The notes under the pieces were generated by a model. That model was not told the origin of the DNA. It saw nothing but the letters and a program-made list of their open reading frames with translations, and ran no database searches. Below are positions 2,227-9,745 of a stretch of DNA of 29,834 nt, piece after piece. The stretch covers positions 1-29,834 of the IMG/VR virus record IMGVR_UViG_3300020219_000054, one strand, 5' to 3'. The position numbers were made by a program, and so were the translations under genes. Each line of letters starts with the position of its first letter. Position 1 is the first letter of the stretch. The DNA comes from a virus.

Positions 2227-2418
2227 ATGAACCCCGAAAAAATTTATTGGACACAGAAAAATGGGTGTAAAATTGACGTGGATGACATGTCAGAAACGCA
2301 TCTGAGGAATGCATTAAAACACATTTTACGTAATCAAAATATTGGCGTAGTACCCTTTTCAGAAGCTGAAATAGAGGCAATCGCCGCCGCGCAAGGGGAT
2401 GATTGGCTGTGGAAGTGA
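2227..2418 (+). CDS. Small unrecognised protein
   Basis: A 63-residue protein beginning MNPEKIYWTQKNGCKIDVDD. The later parts are an amphipathic helix (ETHLRNALKHILRNQ) and an acidic tail ending DDWLWK. The pattern -WxxxxGxxIxxxxMxxxHLxNxLxxI- resembles small phage proteins of unknown role that open with a strand-turn-strand and then a helix. It starts 1 nt after the stop of the previous gene, which supports translational coupling. No function can be assigned. Confidence 0.7.
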   Translation: MNPEKIYWTQKNGCKIDVDDMSETHLRNALKHILRNQNIGVVPFSEAEIEAIAAAQGDDWLWK

Positions 2419-2452
2419 ACTAAACGTATTTAAATTTAACACAGAATTTTAT

Positions 2453-2740
2453 ATGGAAAATGAAACAGCATTAAACCAAGAAACCCCGCCTATTGCAAAT
2501 GTGCCGTTAGCGGTAGTGTTCCCTCGTAAATTGGTTCACTCGGGAAAGCGAAGAGCTTTTGCCTCGTGTTTTGTTTGGGATTGCCCTGCTTGCGGAAAGT
2601 GGAACATCCTGCAAACAAGAAACCTATTCGGAATATCGATAACCACCTGCCAGGATTGTAAAACAGGGATTAAATTAGATAAGGAGAACCCCGTAGAAGA
2701 AATAACACGAACAAAAGCTACGAAGTCAATTATAGATTAG
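2453..2740 (+). CDS. Zinc-ribbon-like small protein
   Basis: A 95-residue protein starting at the ATG at 2453 (MENETALNQETPPIANVPLA). A CPAC pair (CVWDCPACGKWNI) and a CQDC pair (ITTCQDCKTG) about 20 residues apart form a plausible four-cysteine zinc ribbon, followed by a charged tail. An upstream ATG at 2399 in the same frame would extend it by 18 residues overlapping the previous gene, but its sequence is less natural and the gap before 2453 is AT-rich like other starts here. Small zinc ribbons in phages often bind nucleic acid or RNA polymerase. That is family knowledge only, and the role here is unknown. Confidence 0.7.
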   Translation: MENETALNQETPPIANVPLAVVFPRKLVHSGKRRAFASCFVWDCPACGKWNILQTRNLFGISITTCQDCKTGIKLDKENPVEEITRTKATKSIID

Positions 2741-2768
2741 CGGTTCGGGCTTCTCCGCTTTTAGAAGC
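2739..2768 (+). promoter_or_regulatory. Two overlapping hairpins (terminator or attenuator candidate)
   Basis: AGCGG (2739-2743) pairs with CCGCT (2755-2759) followed by TTTT, a weak terminator shape. GCTTCT (2749-2754) also pairs with AGAAGC (2763-2768). The two stems interlock, so they exclude each other or form a pseudoknot. The site lies in the 48-nt gap between the zinc-ribbon gene and the P-loop ATPase gene. Confidence 0.45.
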
Positions 2769-2788: not shown

Positions 2789-3163
2789 ATGAAAAAATCA
2801 ATTTTAATTACTGGCCGCCAAGGTAGCGGCAAAACGACAAAAGCAAAAGAAATTGCAAGTCAGTTTCAAATAGATGAAGTGGTATTTCTTCCGTTTCAGG
2901 GCGCGATGAACGACAAGTTTCTTTTTTCTGAATGCACAGAGAAAACAAAGTTGATAGTGGTCGATGATCTTTCCGACCTTGCCCAAGTTCAATTGTTTTT
3001 AAATCCTATTGTAGTAGTAAACAAGAAAATGAAAGAACCCTTTTCAATCAATCCGCAATTTGTACTGGTTTGCCAAAGCGATATTCAACCCGATCAACTT
3101 GTCGAGCTCGGTGCAAATTTTGAGGTTATTAACTGTCAATTTAGGGCAGCCGCTAACTCGTAG
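2789..3163 (+). CDS. Mini P-loop ATPase
   Basis: A 124-residue single-domain NTPase. The Walker A motif GRQGSGKTT is at residues 9-17, directly after a hydrophobic strand. A Walker B motif LIVVDD is at 55-60. A further strand, FVLVCQSD, at 91-98 is placed like a sensor-I strand. There is no room for a lid or a partner domain, so it is far smaller than AAA+ initiators, and it lacks the RecA, DnaC or kinase residues I would look for. It may act in a complex with another phage protein. The end of the gene (CCGCTAACTCG) resembles the head of the family B leader, which begins 8 nt after the stop. The ATPase fold is well supported; its role is not. Confidence 0.8.
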   Translation: MKKSILITGRQGSGKTTKAKEIASQFQIDEVVFLPFQGAMNDKFLFSECTEKTKLIVVDDLSDLAQVQLFLNPIVVVNKKMKEPFSINPQFVLVCQSDIQPDQLVELGANFEVINCQFRAAANS

Positions 3164-3225
3164 CTTTGCACCTAACACCCCACTTTGCGTAGGTGGCGCT
3201 TCCACCACAAAAGTAAATTTGAAAG
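3161..3225 (+). repeat. Family B leader, copy 1, with two promoter-like -7 boxes
   Basis: The core TAACACCCCACTTTGCG begins at 3173. The hairpin GGTGG (3192-3196) - CGCTT - CCACC (3202-3206) is followed by ACAAAAG. TAAATTTG (3214-3221), a perfect Bacteroidota -7 box, ends 4 nt before the ATG at 3226. A second -7-like box, TAGCTTTG, lies at 3161-3168 just before the element. TTTG before and CAAA after the hairpin can extend the stem across an internal loop. Confidence 0.85.
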
Positions 3226-3453
3226 ATGAAAGAGGATATAACCACAAATGTTCAAGCTGAGCTATTCGCCCTGCCTGACGCAAAGTTAGCTGCGGGGCTT
3301 ACTTGTAACACCTGTGAACACCGCCAAAAACACCAATGCAATAGTAAGGTGTTTCAATATTGCGGTGTTCGTAAGAGCAACCGAACTAACAATAGCTTGC
3401 TAAAAATTAAATGTAAAACCGCTGCTTGTCCGCTTCACCAGCCTTGCAGCTAA
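3226..3453 (+). CDS. Cys-rich small protein (putative metal-binding)
   Basis: A 75-residue protein. After a variable N-terminus it has TCNTCEHRQKHQCN, then YCGVRKSNRTNN, and ends KTAACPLHQPCS. Seven cysteines and several histidines at CxxCxH / C / C / CPLH / C spacing suggest one or two zinc sites. I recall similar short Cys/His proteins as recurrent hypothetical proteins of Bacteroidota phages. The start is fixed by the -7 box 4 nt upstream in a family B leader, which would give an almost leaderless message. No catalytic role is apparent, and nucleic-acid or protein binding is possible. Confidence 0.75.
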   Translation: MKEDITTNVQAELFALPDAKLAAGLTCNTCEHRQKHQCNSKVFQYCGVRKSNRTNNSLLKIKCKTAACPLHQPCS

Positions 3454-3457
3454 TTTG

Positions 3458-3465
3458 TAGATTTG
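3458..3465 (+). promoter_or_regulatory. Possible promoter -7 box
   Basis: TAGATTTG matches the Bacteroidota -7 consensus TAnnTTTG, but no TTTG is found at the expected distance upstream. It lies in the 72-nt gap before the MazG-like gene, which has no family B leader. Transcription from here would give a leader of about 60 nt containing GGAGG at 3480-3484, too far from the ATG at 3526 to serve as its ribosome-binding site. Confidence 0.35.
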
Positions 3466-3525
3466 CGTTCGGTTATCGGAGGCACTTCTTTCGGAATGAT
3501 TAATTAACAATTAAATAAAAAGAAT

Positions 3526-3900
3526 ATGTTAAACCAATTAGCGACAGAAATTCACGAAAACGCCAAATCAAAAGGATTTTTTGATGGTGAAAAAAACATT
3601 GGCGAAATGCTTTGTCTGATACATTCGGAAGTTTCCGAAGCATTAGAGGCAGACAGAAAGAATTATTACTCCAATATTTCGGAAATAAAATTAAAAGGGT
3701 TAGCCGATGAAAATTCAGCTGAAAAATTTAAAGATGTTTTTACCGAATGTGTAAAAGACACATTTGAAGATGAATTAGCAGATGTTGTTATAAGAGTTTT
3801 TGACCTATGTGCTTTTAAGGGGATTGATATTGAAAGTCACATTAAAGCCAAAATGAGATATAACGCAAGTCGTCCTCATAAACACGGTAAGTTGTATTAG
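3526..3900 (+). CDS. MazG-like nucleoside triphosphate pyrophosphohydrolase
   Basis: A 124-residue all-alpha NTP pyrophosphatase of the MazG-like type. The metal-binding glutamates appear in LIHSEVSEALEA (E35, E38, E41) and in FEDELADVVIRVFD (E83, D86), with the usual K/R-rich tail KAKMRYNASRPHKHGK. Members hydrolyse (d)NTPs to the monophosphate and pyrophosphate. In phages they are thought to clear non-canonical nucleotides or lower the host alarmone response. The length equals one catalytic domain, so it probably works as a dimer or tetramer. The gene is followed 3 nt after its stop by a family B leader. The fold assignment is firm; the substrate cannot be read from the sequence. Confidence 0.9.
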   Translation: MLNQLATEIHENAKSKGFFDGEKNIGEMLCLIHSEVSEALEADRKNYYSNISEIKLKGLADENSAEKFKDVFTECVKDTFEDELADVVIRVFDLCAFKGIDIESHIKAKMRYNASRPHKHGKLY

Positions 3901-3903
3901 GGT

Positions 3904-3965
3904 TGCCGCTAACACACCACTTTGCGCAGGTGGCGCTTCCACCACAAAAGTAAATTTGCAACGAA
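3904..3965 (+). repeat. Family B leader, copy 2
   Basis: TTGCCGCTAACACACCACTT is followed by TGCGCA, the hairpin GGTGG (3929-3933) - CGCTT - CCACC (3939-3943), ACAAAAG and TAAATTTG (3951-3958), a perfect -7 box 7 nt before the ATG at 3966. It is almost identical to copy 1 from the hairpin through the -7 box, although the flanking genes are unrelated. Confidence 0.85.
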
Positions 3966-4148
3966 ATGAAAAAAGGAATGATTTTCGACCTTTACCAAGA
4001 GGGTAAATCGACAAGAAGAGTAATGGCAATTAATGAAAAAGATGTGATGTGTTTAGACGGATGCATAGGAGAAGTTATTAAATTTATTGACTTCGACAAT
4101 GAAGTAGAAAGGGTTTTGATTGATAACATCTTTGATTGCGGAATGTAG
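3966..4148 (+). CDS. Small acidic protein, unknown function
   Basis: A 60-residue protein beginning MKKGMIFDLYQEGKSTRRVM. It continues with strand-like segments (VMCLDGCIGEVIKFIDFDNE) and ends DNIFDCGM. The alternating hydrophobic pattern suggests a small beta-barrel or SH3-like fold, but no motif is recognised. It is the only gene between two family B leaders (copies 2 and 3), i.e. a single-gene cassette. The ATG lies 7 nt after a perfect -7 box, so its message would have a very short leader. Confidence 0.65.
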   Translation: MKKGMIFDLYQEGKSTRRVMAINEKDVMCLDGCIGEVIKFIDFDNEVERVLIDNIFDCGM

Positions 4149-4152
4149 CAAT

Positions 4153-4210
4153 GCCCGCTAACACCCCACTTTGCGCAGGTGGCGCTTCCACCACTAAAAC
4201 TTAATGCCGT
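4153..4210 (+). repeat. Family B leader, copy 3
   Basis: GCCCGCTAACACCCCACTTT is followed by GCGCA, the hairpin GGTGG (4178-4182) - CGCTT - CCACC (4188-4192), and CTAAAACTTAATGCCGT up to the ATG at 4211. The -7 box seen in copies 1 and 2 is missing, so the hairpin and not the promoter box is the part kept in all copies. Confidence 0.85.
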
Positions 4211-4480
4211 ATGGACAAAAAACAATCACCGATAAACAATTGCGATTGCTTGATAGGATTTTTAAGCGGAGAACAAGTCTCCAAATCCAATATCGATTTT
4301 GAAGTGCAAGCTATTGTAAATATCCAACCGACTTTTAAAAAATATGGGTTGCTGAATGGCGAACCGCAAAGTAAAAGTCAAATTGTGGACGGTAGAAAAG
4401 GCTATTTAAGCCGCTTTAGTTACTGCCCTTTTTGTGGCGAAAAAGTGAATTGGAAGCAGGTTCTTAGCAATTGCACATAA
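4211..4480 (+). CDS. Small protein with Cys pairs (zinc-ribbon-like)
   Basis: An 89-residue protein beginning MDKKQSPINNCDCLIGFLSG. It has a CDC pair at residues 11-13, a middle beta-strand region and a typical half zinc ribbon SYCPFCGEK near the end, followed by a last Cys (SNCT). I recall small phage proteins with a C-terminal FCPxCGxxI motif as common but unassigned. Its stop codon lies inside the head of the next family B leader (CACATAACAC), so the cassette boundary cuts into the coding end. The start follows copy 3 of the leader. Confidence 0.7.
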   Translation: MDKKQSPINNCDCLIGFLSGEQVSKSNIDFEVQAIVNIQPTFKKYGLLNGEPQSKSQIVDGRKGYLSRFSYCPFCGEKVNWKQVLSNCT

Positions 4481-4538
4481 CACACCACTTAGCGCAGGTG
4501 GCGCTTCCACCACTAAAAACTTTAAAAACAACAATAAA
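4471..4538 (+). repeat. Family B leader, copy 4
   Basis: TTGCACATAACACACCACTT is followed by AGCGCA, the hairpin GGTGG (4497-4501) - CGCTT - CCACC (4507-4511) and CTAAAAACTTT, then 16 AT-rich bases to the ATG at 4539. Where other copies have TTTG before the hairpin this one has TTAG, and where copies 1, 2 and 6 have CAAA after it this one has CTAA, so the outer pairing is kept. Confidence 0.85.
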
Positions 4539-5192
4539 ATGGCTGAAATTAATCTTTATAATATAGATTGTATGGAGTTGCTGAAACAATACCCCGACAA
4601 TCACTTTGATTTGGCTATTGTTGACCCACCGTATGGAATTGATATAAACAATCAATCGCAAGGTAAGGGAGGCGGTGTGGCAAGGAAAATTGATTACACT
4701 AAATACGATTGGGACAAACAAGCACCGAACAAAGAATACTTTGATGAGTTGTTTAGAGTAAGCAAAAATCAAATCATTTGGGGTGCAAATCACTTTATTG
4801 AAAAGATACCATACAATACAAGTTGCTGGATTGTTTGGGACAAAGATAATGGAGAAACTGATTTTGCTGACTGTGAATTAGCGTGGACAAGTTTTAAAAC
4901 TGCGGTGCGAAAATTCAAATGGAAATGGGCAGGAATGCTTCAGCAAAATATGTCAAACAAACAACAACGAATACACCCTACCGAAAAGCCCATACAGCTT
5001 TATCAATGGCTTTTGAAAAAGTACGCAAAGGAAGGGGATTTAATTTTAGATACTCACATAGGAAGTGCCTCTATTGCGATTGCTTGCCACAGAGAAAAAT
5101 ATGATTTAATAGGGTGCGAATTAGTAACTGAATATTATGTTAAAGGACTAAACAGATTAAAAAATGAACAAGCGCAAACCTCTTTATTTTAA
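4539..5192 (+). CDS. Orphan DNA methyltransferase (N6-adenine/N4-cytosine, beta class)
   Basis: A 217-residue protein of the N6_N4 methylase family. The catalytic motif IV DPPY is at residues 29-32, near the N-terminus. RIHPTEKPIQLYQW (145-158) follows, and then the cofactor-binding motif LDTHIGSASIAIA (170-182), in place of the more usual DPFxGSGT. Catalysis before SAM-binding is the beta-class order. It transfers a methyl group from SAM to adenine N6 or cytosine N4. There is no linked restriction enzyme, so it is an orphan, as common in phages, where it may protect against host restriction. The target cannot be read from the sequence. There is no separate recognition domain, so recognition probably lies in the variable part at residues 40-140. 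Confidence 0.92.
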   Translation: MAEINLYNIDCMELLKQYPDNHFDLAIVDPPYGIDINNQSQGKGGGVARKIDYTKYDWDKQAPNKEYFDELFRVSKNQIIWGANHFIEKIPYNTSCWIVWDKDNGETDFADCELAWTSFKTAVRKFKWKWAGMLQQNMSNKQQRIHPTEKPIQLYQWLLKKYAKEGDLILDTHIGSASIAIACHREKYDLIGCELVTEYYVKGLNRLKNEQAQTSLF

Positions 5193-5245
5193 AATAAGAA
5201 AATTTATTAAAAAAATGTGCGGAGGGATTTTTTCTTTTTTAAAAC

Positions 5246-5305
5246 TTGCACATAACCACACACTTTGCGCGGGTGGCGCTTCCACCACTAAATTAAAATT
5301 GAAAA
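5246..5305 (+). repeat. Family B leader, copy 5
   Basis: CTTGCACATAACCACACACT is followed by TTGCGCG, the hairpin GGTGG (5272-5276) - CGCTT - CCACC (5282-5286), and CTAAATTAAAATTGAAAA to the ATG at 5306. TAAAATTG, one base from the -7 consensus, ends 4 nt before the start. The 53 nt between the methyltransferase stop and this copy are AT-rich and hold no convincing gene. Confidence 0.85.
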
Positions 5306-5635
5306 ATGGAAAATAATTCTGAAGAAGCACAAAACCTCGCCTTGGGGGTAGGTGCTGTTAGTGGCCGCCGTTTTTCTGTCGCGGATTTAGATGCTTGTTG
5401 GGGCGATTACACAACGGAAAGGCTCCGCGACATATTAAATAATGATTATAATATCGACGATGCAAGGGCTGACTTAATAAGCCTTATCGGATCTAAACAT
5501 GACCCTCGTGAAAAGCCCCCCGAAGATAAAAATATATTGTTATGTCGAAAGTGTTGCAAACCCCACCTCCTACGAGATGAGGATGCGGGTAGTGATAGAG
5601 AAGACCTTAGGCTGTGTGTTCGATGTTTCCTTTAA
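5306..5635 (+). CDS. Unrecognised protein with C-terminal Cys pairs
   Basis: A 109-residue protein. Residues 1-60 are helical and acidic (DLDACWGDYTTERLRDILNN). The C-terminal third carries LCRKCCKPHLLRDEDAG and then RLCVRCFL, two Cys pairs separated by about 25 residues, so a treble-clef or ribbon zinc site is likely. No enzymatic motif is visible. The start is set by family B leader copy 5. The next gene begins 17 nt after its stop without a leader copy, so these two probably form one unit. Confidence 0.7.
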   Translation: MENNSEEAQNLALGVGAVSGRRFSVADLDACWGDYTTERLRDILNNDYNIDDARADLISLIGSKHDPREKPPEDKNILLCRKCCKPHLLRDEDAGSDREDLRLCVRCFL

Positions 5636-5652
5636 ATATAAATTGAAAGACA

Positions 5653-5877
5653 ATGATACAAGTTATTAAATACAAATGTTGCGGACAGATATTCGCTGCT
5701 TGTTGCGAGCCTGAATGTTACACCGAAAAAGATTGGTTGAAAGATATGCGAAAATATGCACTAAGGGGCGATAAGGTAGAAATGAGGGAAAGCGGAAACG
5801 TTAAGTTGGGTAAATGTACTTGTGCAAATGCAGAAACTTCTAAAAACCTATACTTATTTAGTGCGGTGGCTGGATAA
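5653..5877 (+). CDS. Cys-rich small protein (YKCCGQIFAAC type)
   Basis: A 74-residue protein beginning MIQVIKYKCCGQIFAACCEP, followed by ECYTEKDWLKDMRKYALRGD and a late GKCTCANAE. The pattern KCCGxxFAACxEPxCYTxKDWxKDxxKY is one I recall from small unassigned proteins of Bacteroidota phages. Seven to eight cysteines in close pairs suggest one or two metal sites. The C-terminus (SAVAG) ends 8 nt before family B copy 6. Longer frames crossing into the leader are shadows. Confidence 0.75.
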   Translation: MIQVIKYKCCGQIFAACCEPECYTEKDWLKDMRKYALRGDKVEMRESGNVKLGKCTCANAETSKNLYLFSAVAG

Positions 5878-5884
5878 TTTTATT

Positions 5885-5938
5885 TCCGCTAACACACCAC
5901 TTTGCGCAGGTGGCGCTTCCACCACAAAAACAAGCTAT
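5885..5938 (+). repeat. Family B leader, copy 6
   Basis: TCCGCTAACACACCACTTTG is followed by CGCA, the hairpin GGTGG (5909-5913) - CGCTT - CCACC (5919-5923), and ACAAAAACAAGCTAT to an ATG at 5939. It is the last copy before the non-coding switch region. Confidence 0.85.
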
Positions 5939-6229
5939 ATGCAAAACCTTTTAAGAGCCGCCGTTTGGATTTCATCCGGCGTTCATTTTGGGAATCTGAA
6001 CGTTCCCGATACCGGCAAATATGCCGACCCCGGCGAACGGAAAAACCTCCTATCGTGCCTGTCGTTGGATATGTGGGCATCCTGTTTGTCTGTTCGTATT
6101 CTCCGAGTACGGCTTCGAACGGCGGGCAGCGGGATCGAGGACTTTCACGACCGCGCGCTTTTCGGAATAGCGTTACACCGAAAAGGCTTAATAATCGAAA
6201 TTATGTTTACGCAAATCTGTTTTGCCTAA
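5939..6229 (+). CDS. Doubtful 96-residue ORF after family B copy 6
   Basis: The first ATG after the leader opens a 96-codon frame (MQNLLRAAVWISSGVHFGNL at the start, ending IMFTQICFA). The position after the leader argues for a real gene. Against it, the base composition is visibly more GC-rich and CG-dense than its neighbours, the protein has no recognisable motif, and an overlapping +3 frame (5902-6285) is equally open. It may be a decayed or recently acquired cassette insert, with the true frame obscured by an indel. No function is proposed. Confidence 0.3.
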   Translation: MQNLLRAAVWISSGVHFGNLNVPDTGKYADPGERKNLLSCLSLDMWASCLSVRILRVRLRTAGSGIEDFHDRALFGIALHRKGLIIEIMFTQICFA

Positions 6230-6305
6230 TTAAAGTGGAGCGACAAACCGTTAAAACTAATTCGCAAAACGGGTGGTTTGGTTAACGCTTTGCCCAATAT
6301 GTTAG

Positions 6306-6649
6306 TTTTTGTTACATGCCTCTTAAATTATGTTAGTTATTGTACTAATAGGACAGAATGTAACATAATTCAAAAGGCATAGTACAGAATGTAACATAAT
6401 TTTGGGGTTTTGGCCAAATAGGTCGTTTTGCCCTTAAAACGAGAAACAAAGAAAAGCCGTTTTGGGGCAACTCAAAAAACTTTTGTTACTTTCTGTCCTA
6501 TTTTAAGGGCAAAAAGCGAACATTTTGTCCTATTAGGAATAAAACCCCAAAAAAAAAAACAGGAAAACAGGAATACAGGATTTCTATAGAGACCCTAACT
6601 ACTTTTGTTACTTTTTGTATTATAGGGTATAGTACAGAAAGTAACATAA
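6306..6649. repeat. Iteron-like 20-bp motif in both orientations
   Basis: Direct copies: TAGGACAGAATGTAACATAA (6349-6368), TAGTACAGAATGTAACATAA (6380-6399) and TAGTACAGAAAGTAACATAA (6630-6649). Inverted copies: TTATGTTAGTTATTGTACTA (6328-6347), TTTTGTTACTTTCTGTCCTA (6481-6500) and TTTTGTTACTTTTTGTATTA (6603-6622). Degenerate inverted pieces occur at 6307-6318 and around 6520-6532. Some copies form dyads, back to back with 1 nt between (6328-6368) or 7 nt between (6603-6649). This looks like a binding-site array for a dimeric protein, either replication iterons or operators. Apart from the low-confidence ORF to 6229, nothing codes between 6230 and 6754. Confidence 0.8.
6400..6552. repeat. Nested inverted repeats
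   Basis: TTTTGGGGTTTT (6400-6411) is the exact reverse complement of AAAACCCCAAAA (6541-6552). TTTTGCCCTTAAAA (6426-6439) is the exact reverse complement of TTTTAAGGGCAAAA (6501-6514). The arms are nested around a core of about 60 bp that holds one inverted copy of the 20-bp motif. It could extrude as a cruciform or form a long hairpin in RNA or single-stranded DNA. Confidence 0.8.
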
Positions 6650-6700
6650 GTAGTTAAGACTGCATAGGAAATCCTGTTTTCTTGTTTTCTTGTTTTTTTT
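6552..6700. repeat. 149-bp imperfect palindrome centred on 6626
   Basis: The outer arms 6552-6584 and 6668-6700 pair at 30 of 33 positions (repeats of ACAGGA, then GGATTTC). The inner arms 6597-6622 and 6630-6655 pair at 23 of 26 (AACTACTT, GTTACTTT, TGTA). Both pairs share the same centre and are separated by 12 unpaired bases on each side. The inner arms are built from one inverted and one direct copy of the 20-bp motif. The right outer arm ends in a T run (TGTTTTTTTT), so on the plus strand it also has the shape of a very large terminator. Confidence 0.85.
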
Positions 6701-6742
6701 AAAATAATCGTCTAATAATTAGGACGGTATTGAAAACCTTAT

Positions 6743-6750
6743 TAAATTTC
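6743..6750 (+). promoter_or_regulatory. Weak -7 box before the first late gene
   Basis: TAAATTTC differs from TAnnTTTG only at the last base and ends 4 nt before the ATG at 6755, the same spacing as at 3226, 9149 and 11520. No TTTG is present at -33. It lies just right of the palindrome, so it would be the natural target of a protein bound there. Confidence 0.35.
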
Positions 6751-6754
6751 GCGC

Positions 6755-7345
6755 ATGAACAGAAATCCATTAACCCTCTTCTGCGATGCATACTTCACCT
6801 TCGGTATGCCGATAGACCTTTCGGCCAAATACGCATATCAAGCTCGGCCATACGCAAAAAGCTGGGAGTATTTTGGTAAGCAGCTTTTAAAGCAGTCGAG
6901 GGGAACCGCCCGTCGGCAGGTTGCCGATTCTGCGACGACCCTGACGCGTTATTTGCCGCTGCAACAGCACGCGTTCTGTATACTGGAGAAAGTGGGCTAC
7001 AGCGCAGCAGAAGCGGCCATGCACGCAAAAATCCGGCTGCCCCCAGGCATGACCGGAGAGACGCTACTCAAAAACGACCAAATAGCGCTTTTTATGGGCA
7101 AGCTGAGCGAAAGCTTCGTGTTGCGTAGGCAAAACGATATAGAGCCCCACCCGGGTTGGCCGGAGTTGCAAAGGTGCAACTTAACGATAAAGCAAAGCGT
7201 TTTTTGCGCGCTCGTTGCAAAAGATGTCTGCATAAAGGATGCGGCCATTTTAGCTGGATATTCGCGCCCGGGATCGCAGCTACTAATCCGGCAAAATCGC
7301 GCCATAATTGCAAACCTTAAACATTTAGAAAAATCAAACTTTTAA
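6755..7345 (+). CDS. Terminase-small-subunit-like DNA-binding protein (putative)
   Basis: A 196-residue protein. The C-terminal part (LTIKQSVFCALVAKDVCIKD, then AAILAGYSRPGSQLLIRQNR and AIIANLKHL) has the arrangement of the helix-turn-helix of terminase small subunits: Lt-x-kQ-x-F, then AAxxAGYS, then LxRxxxVxxxL. The middle also has a HTH-like stretch (YSAAEAAMHAKI). A clearer small terminase lies at 9149, so this may be a diverged second copy, a regulator using the same HTH, or the partner that recognises the pac site. It is the first gene after the non-coding palindrome region, which could be its binding site. The function is inferred from motif shape only. Confidence 0.55.
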   Translation: MNRNPLTLFCDAYFTFGMPIDLSAKYAYQARPYAKSWEYFGKQLLKQSRGTARRQVADSATTLTRYLPLQQHAFCILEKVGYSAAEAAMHAKIRLPPGMTGETLLKNDQIALFMGKLSESFVLRRQNDIEPHPGWPELQRCNLTIKQSVFCALVAKDVCIKDAAILAGYSRPGSQLLIRQNRAIIANLKHLEKSNF

Positions 7346-7349
7346 GAAA

Positions 7350-7808
7350 ATGAAAAACAAATTCATCGTTTTCGTAATTTCGCTATTCGCCATAATGGCA
7401 ACTGCGATTATCGGTGCTGCGCAAGCGCGTTTTGTGGACTCACCCAAAGCCGCTTATGCCACCGCACTGGAGGTGGATCAGGTCATCCACCTCCAGACGT
7501 ACACGCCTGAACGGGGGGACGGTGTTATATATCCGACTATGAGCATTACCGTTACGGGCGACTACGGCGGCGACCTGTTCGTAAAAGTCGAAAACTTGCG
7601 CGTTAGCACAGCCGCAATTTGTGTCGAGCTTGCAGCCCTTCCCGAATATTGGCAGACGGAAGAAGTGGATGGCGGCGTTTTGGTGCGACCCAACAAAAAT
7701 AAAAACCCCTCTACCGTTTTGCGGGTTTTGTGCAATCAGCTTAAAGGCGCTTTCGGGGTGTATTTCACGCACGCGATGCTGAAAGACGCAATAAAAAATA
7801 AAAAATGA
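7350..7808 (+). CDS. Exported protein of unknown function
   Basis: A 152-residue protein with a clear Sec signal: MKNKF, a hydrophobic core FVISLFAIMATAIIGAAQA and a likely signal peptidase I site AQA|RF near residue 27. The mature part has beta-strand character (VIYPTMSITVTGDYGGDLFV). Its last 18 codons, from 7755, are the left boundary of the tandem duplication. The same sequence reappears, detached from its gene, at 8560-8612. The next gene starts in ATGA overlap with its stop. An exported protein within an otherwise intracellular early-late module is unusual. Superinfection exclusion or lysis accessory roles are possible but unsupported. Confidence 0.75.
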   Translation: MKNKFIVFVISLFAIMATAIIGAAQARFVDSPKAAYATALEVDQVIHLQTYTPERGDGVIYPTMSITVTGDYGGDLFVKVENLRVSTAAICVELAALPEYWQTEEVDGGVLVRPNKNKNPSTVLRVLCNQLKGAFGVYFTHAMLKDAIKNKK

Positions 7809-8143
7809 AAAAAGCAAAAGAACACGCTTCGGAACTATTAGCAGTTTACGCTGAAGCGATTAGGCAAGAAAATTGGGAGCTCTTCACGGAAAAAGTAACG
7901 GACGTATTCTGGGAAGTGGTATTAAATGAAGTTAAGGAAATGCAAAAGGCAAGAAACATTTCGTTGGACACAGGTTTAATACCAATTTACAAATCGCAGC
8001 GTGAAAAATATGGCGTAATTTGTAAAATTGTGAACGGGGCACACGCCAATTTACTGGCGATTACCGATTTTGATGAGGTGGTGGAAGCTATTCACCCAAA
8101 AATTTATGAGTGGTATGCGTCGGCAATATTGCTGAAAAAATAA
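7805..8143 (+). CDS. Duplicated-unit gene A, copy 1 (unknown function)
   Basis: A 112-residue protein, overlapping the stop of the exported-protein gene in ATGA. It is helical and charged (KKAKEHASELLAVYAEAIRQ), with a conserved-looking core PIYKSQREKYGVICKIVNGA and DFDEVVEAIHPKIYEWY. The pattern (IPIxxSQxxKYxxIC, then DxFxxxxxxxxPxIYxWY) is one I recall from unassigned Bacteroidota phage proteins located near terminase genes. The paralogue at 8610 has 9 extra residues (TAYNMRTIL region) and is fused to the end of gene B. Copy 1 ends at ILLKK, where the paralogue continues. Confidence 0.75.
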   Translation: MKKAKEHASELLAVYAEAIRQENWELFTEKVTDVFWEVVLNEVKEMQKARNISLDTGLIPIYKSQREKYGVICKIVNGAHANLLAITDFDEVVEAIHPKIYEWYASAILLKK

Positions 8144-8156
8144 AAAAAACACGCCC

Positions 8157-8489
8157 ATGAAAATCTGGAAATTCTGGAAATTCACGCTAAAAAAAGCGAG
8201 AACGCAACTGGTTAAAATGCCTGTAAAATCTAAAATACTGGATATTCAGTTGCAAGAGGGCGGGCTATCCATGTGGGTACTTGTCAGCCCCGAAACGGAA
8301 GAAACGGAGATTAAAATAAATAGGTTTGGGCCTGGGGAAGAAATTCCCGAAAATGTTTTGAAAGACGACTATCTTGCACCCGTTCAGGATGGTGAATATG
8401 TCTGGCACTTTTTCCGCGCGCCCGCTATAGTTTTCTCTCGCGGGATATTTTTCTATAGCGGGCACGCGGAAAATGGGTTTGAAGATTAA
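8157..8489 (+). CDS. Duplicated-unit gene B (unknown function)
   Basis: A 110-residue protein with a basic, aromatic N-terminus (MKIWKFWKFTLKKARTQLVK) and a beta-rich body (LQEGGLSMWVLVSPETEETE). Its last 30 residues (EYVWHFFRAPAI, then GHAENGFED) match the last 30 residues of the fused paralogue ending at 9125 (EVVWRFLRVPTI, then YAQNGFED). The start codon lies in a short tandem repeat (TGGAAATTC twice). The -33 element of the terminase promoter copy lies in its final codons. No function is recognised. Confidence 0.7.
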   Translation: MKIWKFWKFTLKKARTQLVKMPVKSKILDIQLQEGGLSMWVLVSPETEETEIKINRFGPGEEIPENVLKDDYLAPVQDGEYVWHFFRAPAIVFSRGIFFYSGHAENGFED

Positions 8490-8508
8490 ATTAATTATTG
8501 TATTTTTG
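8478..8508 (+). promoter_or_regulatory. Duplicated terminase promoter, upstream copy
   Basis: TTTG (8478-8481), 19 nt, TATTTTTG (8501-8508): a full match to the Bacteroidota -33/-7 consensus. The sequence equals that of the promoter at 9114-9144, but here it reads into a truncated terminase start and the second duplication unit. Confidence 0.75.
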
Positions 8509-8512
8509 CAGA

Positions 8513-8587
8513 ATGCTTTTAGACAGCCAAAAATTAACCGAGACGCTGAATGCCCTGTTGGGGTGTATTTCACGCACGCGGTGCTGA
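8513..8587 (+). pseudogene. Stranded 5' fragment of the small terminase gene
   Basis: The first 17 codons (MLLDSQKLTETLNALLG) are identical to those of the small terminase gene at 9149. The sequence then jumps at GGGGT into the duplicated 3' end of the exported-protein gene, in another frame (CISRTRC, stop at 8585-8587). A 24-residue peptide could still be made from the promoter copy just upstream. Confidence 0.85.
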
Positions 8588-8609
8588 AAGACGCAATAAA
8601 AAACAAAAA

Positions 8610-9125
8610 ATGAAAAAAGCAAAAGAACACGCTTCGGAACTATTAGCAGTTTACGCCGAAGCGATTAGGCGAGATAATTGGGAGCTCTTCACGGAAAAAG
8701 TAACGGACGTATTCCGGGAAGTGGCAGTAAATGAAGTGCAGGAAATGCAAAAGGCAAGAAACATTTCGTTGGACACAGGTACAGCATATAACATGCGCAC
8801 CATTTTAATGCCAATTTACAAATCGCAGCGCGTAAAATATGGCGTAATTTGTAAAATCGTGAACGGGGCACACGCCAATTCATTGGCGGTTGAAGATTTC
8901 GATAAGGTGGTGAAAGCGGTTCACCCAAAAATTTATGATTGGTATGCGTCGGACATTTTGGAGCTCGGAAAACCAGAACTTGAAAAATGTACGTGGTCTG
9001 CGCAAAACGGGGTTGTAGATTCAGGCGACGAAGTTGTCTGGCGCTTTTTGCGCGTGCCAACCATAGAAAAATATCCGGCGATAGTAAAATATAGCTGGTA
9101 CGCGCAAAACGGGTTTGAAGATTAA
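8610..9125 (+). CDS. Duplicated-unit fusion gene A-B, copy 2
   Basis: A 171-residue protein. Residues 1-125 are a diverged copy of gene A at 7805 (KKAKEHASELLAVYAEAIRR, PIYKSQRVKYGVICKIVNGA). The C-terminus (EVVWRFLRVPTIEKYPAIVK, ending YAQNGFED) corresponds to the end of gene B at 8157. Between them is a linker (LELGKPELEKCTWSAQNGVV) not found in unit 1. Either the long form is ancestral and unit 1 was split by an insertion, or a deletion fused A to the end of B in unit 2. The start at 8610 mirrors that of copy 1; the longer frame from 8550 is a product of the duplication junction. Function unknown. Confidence 0.75.
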   Translation: MKKAKEHASELLAVYAEAIRRDNWELFTEKVTDVFREVAVNEVQEMQKARNISLDTGTAYNMRTILMPIYKSQRVKYGVICKIVNGAHANSLAVEDFDKVVKAVHPKIYDWYASDILELGKPELEKCTWSAQNGVVDSGDEVVWRFLRVPTIEKYPAIVKYSWYAQNGFED

Positions 9126-9144
9126 ATTAATTATTGTATTTTTG
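9114..9144 (+). promoter_or_regulatory. Promoter of the packaging genes
   Basis: TTTG (9114-9117), exactly 19 nt, then TATTTTTG (9137-9144), the complete Bacteroidota -33/-7 arrangement. The start codon ATG (9149) is only 4 nt beyond the -7 box, so the transcript would begin at or within a few bases of the start codon. Confidence 0.8.
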
Positions 9145-9148
9145 CAGA

Positions 9149-9745
9149 ATGCTTTTAGACAGCCAAAAATTAACCGAGACGCTGAATGCCCTGTTGGGGT
9201 ACGAGGTACGGTTTTGCCGCGAATTAATGGTGGATTTTAAGCCTTTGCAAGCGCTTGCCCGGGCGCGCGTAAACGGCGGTAAAGGGAAAGCTGCTAAAGA
9301 TACGCTCGTTTTAACTATATTAAACAAACCCCAGGCACAAACATACATCGCGCATCTAAAAGCCGAAATGGAGCTGCAAACCGGCGTAACCCCAGAGCGG
9401 ATATTAGACGAAGTTCGTATTATAGCGTTCCAAAATGTCCGCGATATATTAAAAACGGAGGGGCAAAACGTTGTAATGCGCGATCTGGAAGATATGGTAA
9501 ATACCGGCCAAATTAGGAAAATAAAAATTAGCAAAATTAAAACCGCAGACGGCGAAGACACGGCGGGGCAGATAATAGAGATCGAGTGTTACGACAAGCT
9601 TAAAGCGTTAGAATTGTTAGGAAAACAGGAAGGTCTGTTTATAAAGCGTGTAGACGTTACTACAAACGCAAAAGAAATAGTAACGAGTAACGTGCAAAAT
9701 TTAATTATTAACTACCGTAAAGCGGGTGAACCGTTAGCGGACTAA
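9149..9745 (+). CDS. terS: Terminase small subunit
   Basis: A 198-residue protein with the Terminase_2-type layout. An N-terminal helical segment (TLNALLGYEVRFCRELMVDF) is followed by an AA-type HTH region (LQALARARVNGGKGKAAKDT), the step LNKPQAQTYIAHLKAEMELQ, and a helical oligomerisation part (VTPERILDEVRIIAFQNVRD). The C-terminal half (YDKLKALELLGKQEGLFIKR) is typical of this family. It recognises the packaging site and hands DNA to the large subunit encoded downstream. The ATG at 9149 is chosen over the TTG at 9134 because a consensus promoter ends 4 nt before it and its first 17 codons are repeated at 8513. Confidence 0.85.
   Translation: MLLDSQKLTETLNALLGYEVRFCRELMVDFKPLQALARARVNGGKGKAAKDTLVLTILNKPQAQTYIAHLKAEMELQTGVTPERILDEVRIIAFQNVRDILKTEGQNVVMRDLEDMVNTGQIRKIKISKIKTADGEDTAGQIIEIECYDKLKALELLGKQEGLFIKRVDVTTNAKEIVTSNVQNLIINYRKAGEPLAD

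Follow-up and report, generated by a model that had tools for sequence, protein, structure and literature searches.

The segment between 2.4 and 6.2 kb of a lake phage genome is, with a probability that we put at roughly 0.8, an array of integron-like gene cassettes, borne by the phage and in partial decay. The genome (hereafter the window, i.e. the whole stretch that was analysed: IMG/VR virus record IMGVR_UViG_3300020219_000054, 29,834 bases) contains terminase, portal and head genes, and in the segment concerned a 45-bp leader recurs six times in front of single genes, always on the plus strand, with cores (the T of TAAC) at 3173, 3910, 4159, 4478, 5253 and 5890. Judging by their sequence, these leaders are the left halves of attC-like recombination sites that have become 5' leaders, most of them reduced to half-sites.

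The leaders and the family of sites behind them

A scan with the core pattern (allowing at most 3 mismatches) recovered five copies, against 0.03 expected per shuffled window; copy 5 deviates by a local rearrangement (AACCACACAC). The original prediction, made from the letters alone, of six near-identical leaders in one orientation was thus correct, apart from having placed copy 5 at 5246, about 7 nt early (its core is at 5253). Pairwise identity among the six averages 86% inside the 45-bp core and drops to the level of chance outside it (31% upstream, 27% downstream), which rules out that the leaders arose by segmental duplication. The identity starts exactly at TAAC, the preceding bases being CCGC in copies 2, 3 and 6, GCACA in copies 4 and 5 and CACC in copy 1, and the end of CCACCAC is separated from the ATG by 13-25 nt. 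The genes that follow are unrelated (an N6/N4 DNA methyltransferase plus small proteins without a family), and a TAnnTTTG box stands 3' of the hairpin in copies 1 and 2 only; both points agree with the prediction. RNA folding of the ~75-nt leaders found the short hairpin no more stable than shuffled sequence (z -0.13 to 1.1), and Rfam returned no convincing family for the leader. The exact leader was absent from all other viral or genome contigs searched, in which exact and loosened patterns gave chance matches only (L007, L014, L015), the sole loose leader match, L007, being an unrelated GC-rich phage.

The clue to the origin of the leader came from the methyltransferase behind copy 4, whose relatives in the viral contigs L016 and L017 (87-88% identical) are surrounded by other genes and other hairpins, the stretch in common with the window running from TTATGTG to GCACATAAC. 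The 3' end of the gene, GCACA|TAAC, is common to all three, and the sequences diverge beyond it. The sites around the gene in L016 and L017 follow one plan, i.e. TAAC, an arm, a loop of ~70 nt (often with the ATG of the next gene), a complementary arm and G|TTA, and a pattern scan of genome contigs brought up such sites in three contigs, of which two belong to Bacteroidota assemblies. Our covariance model R1 was built on 21 aligned sites, none of them from the window. Their 18-bp stem has 91.6% of its cells paired (0 of 500 shuffles), a covariation score of 0.713 versus 0.180 when shuffled (0/500) and 16 pairs with double changes (2/500), a count that is partly circular because the sites had first been selected by TAAC, GTTA and arm complementarity.

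The 58 attC-like sites measure 115-129 nt (typically ~126 nt) and form a two-armed imperfect hairpin with the 18-bp stem; in the GCGTTC/GACGC stem subtype a 3x2 internal loop was read by eye. R1 sites, arranged in arrays, are present in 139 of 296 Bacteroidota genomes versus 2 of 149 genomes of a control phylum, and in 80 of the 120 genomes of one order (per-genome site counts are lower bounds, and R1 E-values are rough throughout). The closest known relatives of the window leader are chromosomal sites, the best being CTTGGCGAAGGTGGCGATTTCCACCACAAATGT (a full site in L158), with a score of 21; shuffled leaders reached maxima averaging 9.8, and none of 300 attained 21.

Inside the window, where all features described here lie on the plus strand, the complete plan is found at copy 1. 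Its leader (3169..3213) is the left half of a full attC-like site (3173..3288), in which the TAAC at 3173 is followed by the left arm CTTTGCGTAGG.., a loop with an ATG at 3226, the right arm CCTGACGCAAAG and the R' box G|TTAGCTGC (3285|3286). R1 matches it over its full length (18.8 bits, E 0.036), and the complementarity of the right arm was equalled in 6 of 500 shuffles. The start codon of the Cys-rich 75-aa gene (3226..3453) sits in the loop of this site, so that its N-terminal codons span the right arm and R'. Copy 5 (leader 5249..5293) belongs to a weak full-length site (5253..5360; R' TGCTG|TTAGTGG; 17.1 bits, E 0.085) with poorly complementary arms. A further remnant, devoid of its left arm, lies at 2411..2512 (R1 loop match, 22.7 bits, E 0.005) and consists of a loop-like leader, the right arm CCCCGCCTATTGCAAATGTGCCG and R' G|TTAGCGG (2506|2507), preceding and entering gene 2453-2740 (weakly zinc-ribbon or Lar-like). 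The remaining leaders are half-sites: copy 2 (3906..3950, right arm absent), copy 3 (4155..4199), copy 4 (4474..4518) and copy 6 (5886..5930). Hence, a two-armed hairpin of 57-142 nt with inverted R boxes is present at copy 1, weakly so at copy 5, and absent at the other four.

Cassette ends and exchange in related phages

Across 43 cassettes, complementarity between the two ends extends to 4.9 of the 6 positions beyond TTA, versus 2.44 when ends were dealt randomly (0 of 5000); for the two flanks of a single site the figure is 2.46 of 6. The test is independent, as end complementarity played no part in the selection of the sites. The R boxes therefore match within a cassette and not within an intergenic site, which is the logic of integrons. 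Unit 1 of the window follows it to the letter: the 5' cassette end TTAGCTGC (3286..3293) is the perfect reverse complement (8/8) of the 3' end GCAGCTAA (3446..3453), which holds the stop codon of gene 3226-3453. In the chromosomal array of L111 (2408-5127) a whole cassette is tandemly duplicated, with an identical site.

Natural exchange is visible in isolated Flavobacterium phages (Muminvirus, Hattifnattvirus), where as many as 12 sites are packed into 9 kb and filifjonk9-1 has five annotated methyltransferases. A 506-bp deletion leads from mumin9-1 to mumin6-3, a 288-bp insertion separates snusmum9-1 from hattifnatt9-1, and comparisons among Muminvirus genomes also revealed a moved block of 703 bp and four swaps. 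Every Muminvirus junction examined falls at TAAC: what precedes it derives from one neighbour and what follows it from another. The moving unit is the site plus the gene behind it. These junctions behave as those of integrons do, the crossover lying at G|TT of the R box. A similar left junction is seen in the Polaribacter phages P12002S and P12002L, and R1 finds four sites in P12002S. A crossover at the right-hand G|TTA, our first reading, was dropped on account of the left-hand position of the Muminvirus junctions. The Muminvirus arrays inspected (L191-L198) end in a constant TAACTACAATATTACATGATAAAAAATATTATTT, a candidate attI-like anchor, and a constant array end TAACTACAATATTACATG in Muminvirus is a candidate attI.

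The check suggested with the original prediction, that related phages should exchange cassettes exactly at the leaders, therefore came out positive. What did not survive is the view of the repeat as an anchor for homologous recombination: the exchanging sites of these relatives have just ~5-7 nt in common at the junction. It is highly improbable that the repeats are a mobile hairpin (a miniature inverted-repeat transposable element or a repetitive extragenic palindrome) inserted time and again between genes, as their hairpin, copy number and intergenic position might suggest, since in the Muminvirus comparisons the following gene is part of the unit, empty sites did not turn up, and changes at the upstream end go along with changes of the upstream gene.

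A weightier alternative is a pure 5' regulatory leader (attenuator, protein-binding site or translational control element), multiplied by duplication within the phage and with no present role in mobility. Four half-sites placed 13-25 nt ahead of start codons, and a conservation that covers 45 bp without the flanks, speak for it, and copies 2, 3, 4 and 6 may at present serve in just this way; as an account of the whole array we find it unlikely, given the second arm and complementary cassette ends of copy 1, the full homologues that serve as recombination junctions in isolated phages, and the unexceptional stability of the short hairpin.

For the cassette array we propose the following mechanism. 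An intact site, when single-stranded, would fold into a hairpin that a tyrosine recombinase could cut at NNNNTAA^C, the position of the integron R box, and the unit set in motion would comprise the site and its following gene as far as the next TAA. In a flipped phage cassette the 5' site would supply an A-rich leader and, often, the start codon, so that the same hairpin may serve to move a gene and to start its translation. Copy 1, with its complementary cassette ends, is still complete and might be active in the window phage, while copies 2, 3, 4 and 6 have lost the right arm and probably act as fixed translation leaders only.

Polarity, recombinase and the weight of the evidence

In the chromosomes the gene on the TTA side is antisense to the site (as oriented here) in 37 of 42 cases, the usual order of gene then attC, whereas in phages it is sense in 17 of 18 (Fisher 1e-9). 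The window shows the reversed polarity of the phages, and so does the methyltransferase array of L102, a contig that carries DNA polymerase and ribonucleotide reductase genes. As phage cassettes are flipped relative to chromosomal ones, the site becomes the 5' leader of its gene. An ATG in the loop opens a sense open reading frame of at least 60 aa at 18 of the 58 sites, and an antisense one at none, which agrees, as far as translation is concerned, with the predicted shared expression unit, and the leader may play a part in expression.

No general promoter signal of the TAnnTTTG type, the one scanned for, accompanied it: the box occurs in 2 of the 6 window copies and in 1 of 73 site loops, and is commoner on the antisense strand. 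These counts led us to discard a Bacteroidota promoter in the loop. The same figures bear on the idea of cassettes like the promoter plus stem-loop (PeSL) cassettes of T4-type phages, with the hairpin as a homology anchor for general recombination between identical leaders. Six near-identical 45-bp leaders before unrelated genes are what this idea expects, and such identity could recombine inside the phage; we consider it decidedly improbable, as relatives exchange at sites with so few nucleotides in common, and as the relatives of the leader are attC-like, with two arms and R boxes. Of the reading originally put forward, the cassette system with a shared leader thus stands, and the T4 analogy and the homology anchor fall.

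A clade of tyrosine recombinases (L111:7747-8880) keeps company with the sites: R1 sites occur within ~10 kb in 12 of 16 loci versus 1 of 14 XerC/D-like control loci (Fisher 2e-4; the two sets are unmatched in how far the loci lie from contig ends, and two of the 16, L111 and L112, belong to genomes with which the search was seeded). Across genomes the presence of the clade correlates moderately with that of sites (46/58 versus 34/62, p 0.006). The proximity could have another cause, because polysaccharide and NusG-like genes are among those next to the recombinase gene in L111 and L112. The protein resembles XerC-like and VchIntIA (2A3V) chains to an equal degree; it has an N-terminal extension but no counterpart of the ~60-residue insert specific to IntI (2A3V residues 183-242), and at best it scores under the TIGR02249 cut-off. 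By its position, it may act at these sites. A PF00589 recombinase was found in none of the eight phage records searched (the window included); as the clade adjoins chromosomal arrays, the host cell would be the likely source of the enzyme. Breaks in contigs L156, L157, L159, L160, L166 and L167 often lie no more than a few kb from the recombinase gene, a pattern that the repeats of an adjacent array would produce.

Several observations weigh against the cassette array. Copies 2, 3, 4 and 6 have neither right arm nor R' and are not complete sites; the scores of the full-length R1 alignments from copies 1 and 5 are weak (18.8 and 17.1 bits), and the covariation count has the circularity described above. 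The R boxes depart from the GTTRRRY / RYYYAAC consensus, to which R' conforms in 2 and R'' in 3 of 58 sites (the GTTA/TAAC core being present), and most stems are fully paired with a G-T wobble and lack clear extrahelical bases. L016 and L017 carry the same methyltransferase with different hairpins on both sides, so exchange does not always involve site plus gene. P12002L gave no R1 match, though its attC was tested with IntI1 in the literature; a tie between that attC and the R1 type was attempted and failed. Lastly, no exchange was seen in the lineage of the window itself. Five further viral contigs (L008-L012) are 99-100% identical to the window in the terminase region, and none covers the leader array, starting at window positions 6146 (L009), 6597 (L011) and 6856 (L008); the whole 39-kb record of L008 is without the leader. 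As no near-identical contig covers window 3.1-6.1 kb, the exchange observed is that of relatives.

Gene content, neighbouring repeats and wider context

Between unit 1 and copy 2 lies a MazG-like pyrophosphatase gene (3526..3900) with no copy of the six-copy leader in front. Copy 2 is followed by a 60-aa gene (3966..4148) and copy 3 by an 89-aa gene (4211..4480) whose stop TAA doubles as the TAA of copy 4, which in turn precedes the N6/N4 adenine DNA methyltransferase gene (4539..5192; its L016 relative, 88% identical in amino acids, is in another cassette context). The 109-aa gene behind copy 5 (5306..5635) has a C-terminal domain match to the phage relative L114 and nothing more; a 74-aa gene (5653..5877) directly after it, with no leader between them, forms one unit with it. 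Copy 6 is succeeded by a 96-aa gene (5939..6229). For gene 1584-2222 no viral relative was found. The stretch TTAGCGGTTCGGGCTTCTCCGCTTTTAGAAG (2737..2768), which recurs in L016 (5278-5309), begins exactly at the R' crossover point, ahead of unrelated genes in the window and in L016.

Other repeats were noted nearby. A second leader family (..CCCCGG..AAGGAATTTCTTTTCAC..TCTAAAA..ATG) stands ahead of four small genes at 194-249, 439-494, 614-692 and 1021-1099, and two of its copies likewise start with TAACAC. Dense inverted and direct repeats of the TAnGACAGAATGTAACATAA type fill 6298-6700, between the array and the packaging genes, and 7744-9200 harbours a segmental duplication (~805-bp spacing, 94% over 232 nt) that spans two small genes. 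The GC-rich phage contig L007 holds, at 4780-6890, many degenerate copies of GAACGAGTCA..GACAGACACA at 36-nt spacing, possibly a binding-site or recombination array.

Phages with clusters of attC sites (CALINs) have been described by Qi et al. 2023 (PMC9892861), who found some of the sites recombined by IntI1 in E. coli. Theirs and ours have in common attC-like sites between single genes, methyltransferase cassettes and virulent phages without an integrase; here the sites differ in measuring ~126 nt, in their GTTANNNN boxes, in the flipped gene with the site as its 5' leader and, in the window, in being mostly halves. That paper reports P12002L, whereas R1 finds sites in its sister P12002S instead. 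With chromosomal integrons (e.g., the Vibrio superintegron) the system shares arrays of single-gene cassettes, hairpin sites, R boxes complementary within the cassette, the G|TTA junction and a recombinase beside the array; unlike in the Vibrio type, the R boxes are not GTTRRRY, the recombinase has the N-terminal extension but no IntI insert, and the recombinase gene is often oriented like the cassette genes. The T4-type PeSL cassettes are similar in their short repeated hairpin leader, small unrelated phage genes and gene gain and loss, and dissimilar in that here a general promoter is missing, the core is site-specific and the site is two-armed in relatives. The fused cassettes of class 1 integrons (PMC4670013) have also lost part of attC, whereupon neighbouring genes become fixed, yet in the window the remaining half is a 5' leader.

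Integrons are thought to be near-absent from Bacteroidota, with IntegronFinder 2.0 recovering one complete integron in the phylum proper, in Salinibacter ruber (PMC9024848). Integron-like sites occur in nearly half of the Bacteroidota genomes sampled here. Our literature search (preprints and most subscription journals lie outside it) returned no paper on these sites, on the flipped polarity or on the loop start codon, and the flipped polarity, the loop-borne start codon and the spread in Bacteroidota appear to be new within the literature searched. The odds seem to us evenly balanced that Bacteroidota possess an integron class of their own, with ~126-nt sites, GTTANNNN boxes that are free yet complementary to each other and a tyrosine recombinase other than IntI, and that their phages carry flipped cassettes whose site acts as leader and start codon (captured genes being expressed wherever they are inserted), the half-sites of the window having later been fixed as leaders.

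Among the genes in the phage cassettes are methyltransferases and others with a probable role in anti-restriction. In Flavobacterium phages from the Baltic Sea the absence of one methyltransferase was accompanied by poor plating on one host (PMC7077304, in which integrons or cassettes are unmentioned), and cassette exchange is therefore a testable route to a change of host range. If our reading is true, a site that moves a gene and also starts its translation would solve the expression of captured genes without a common promoter.

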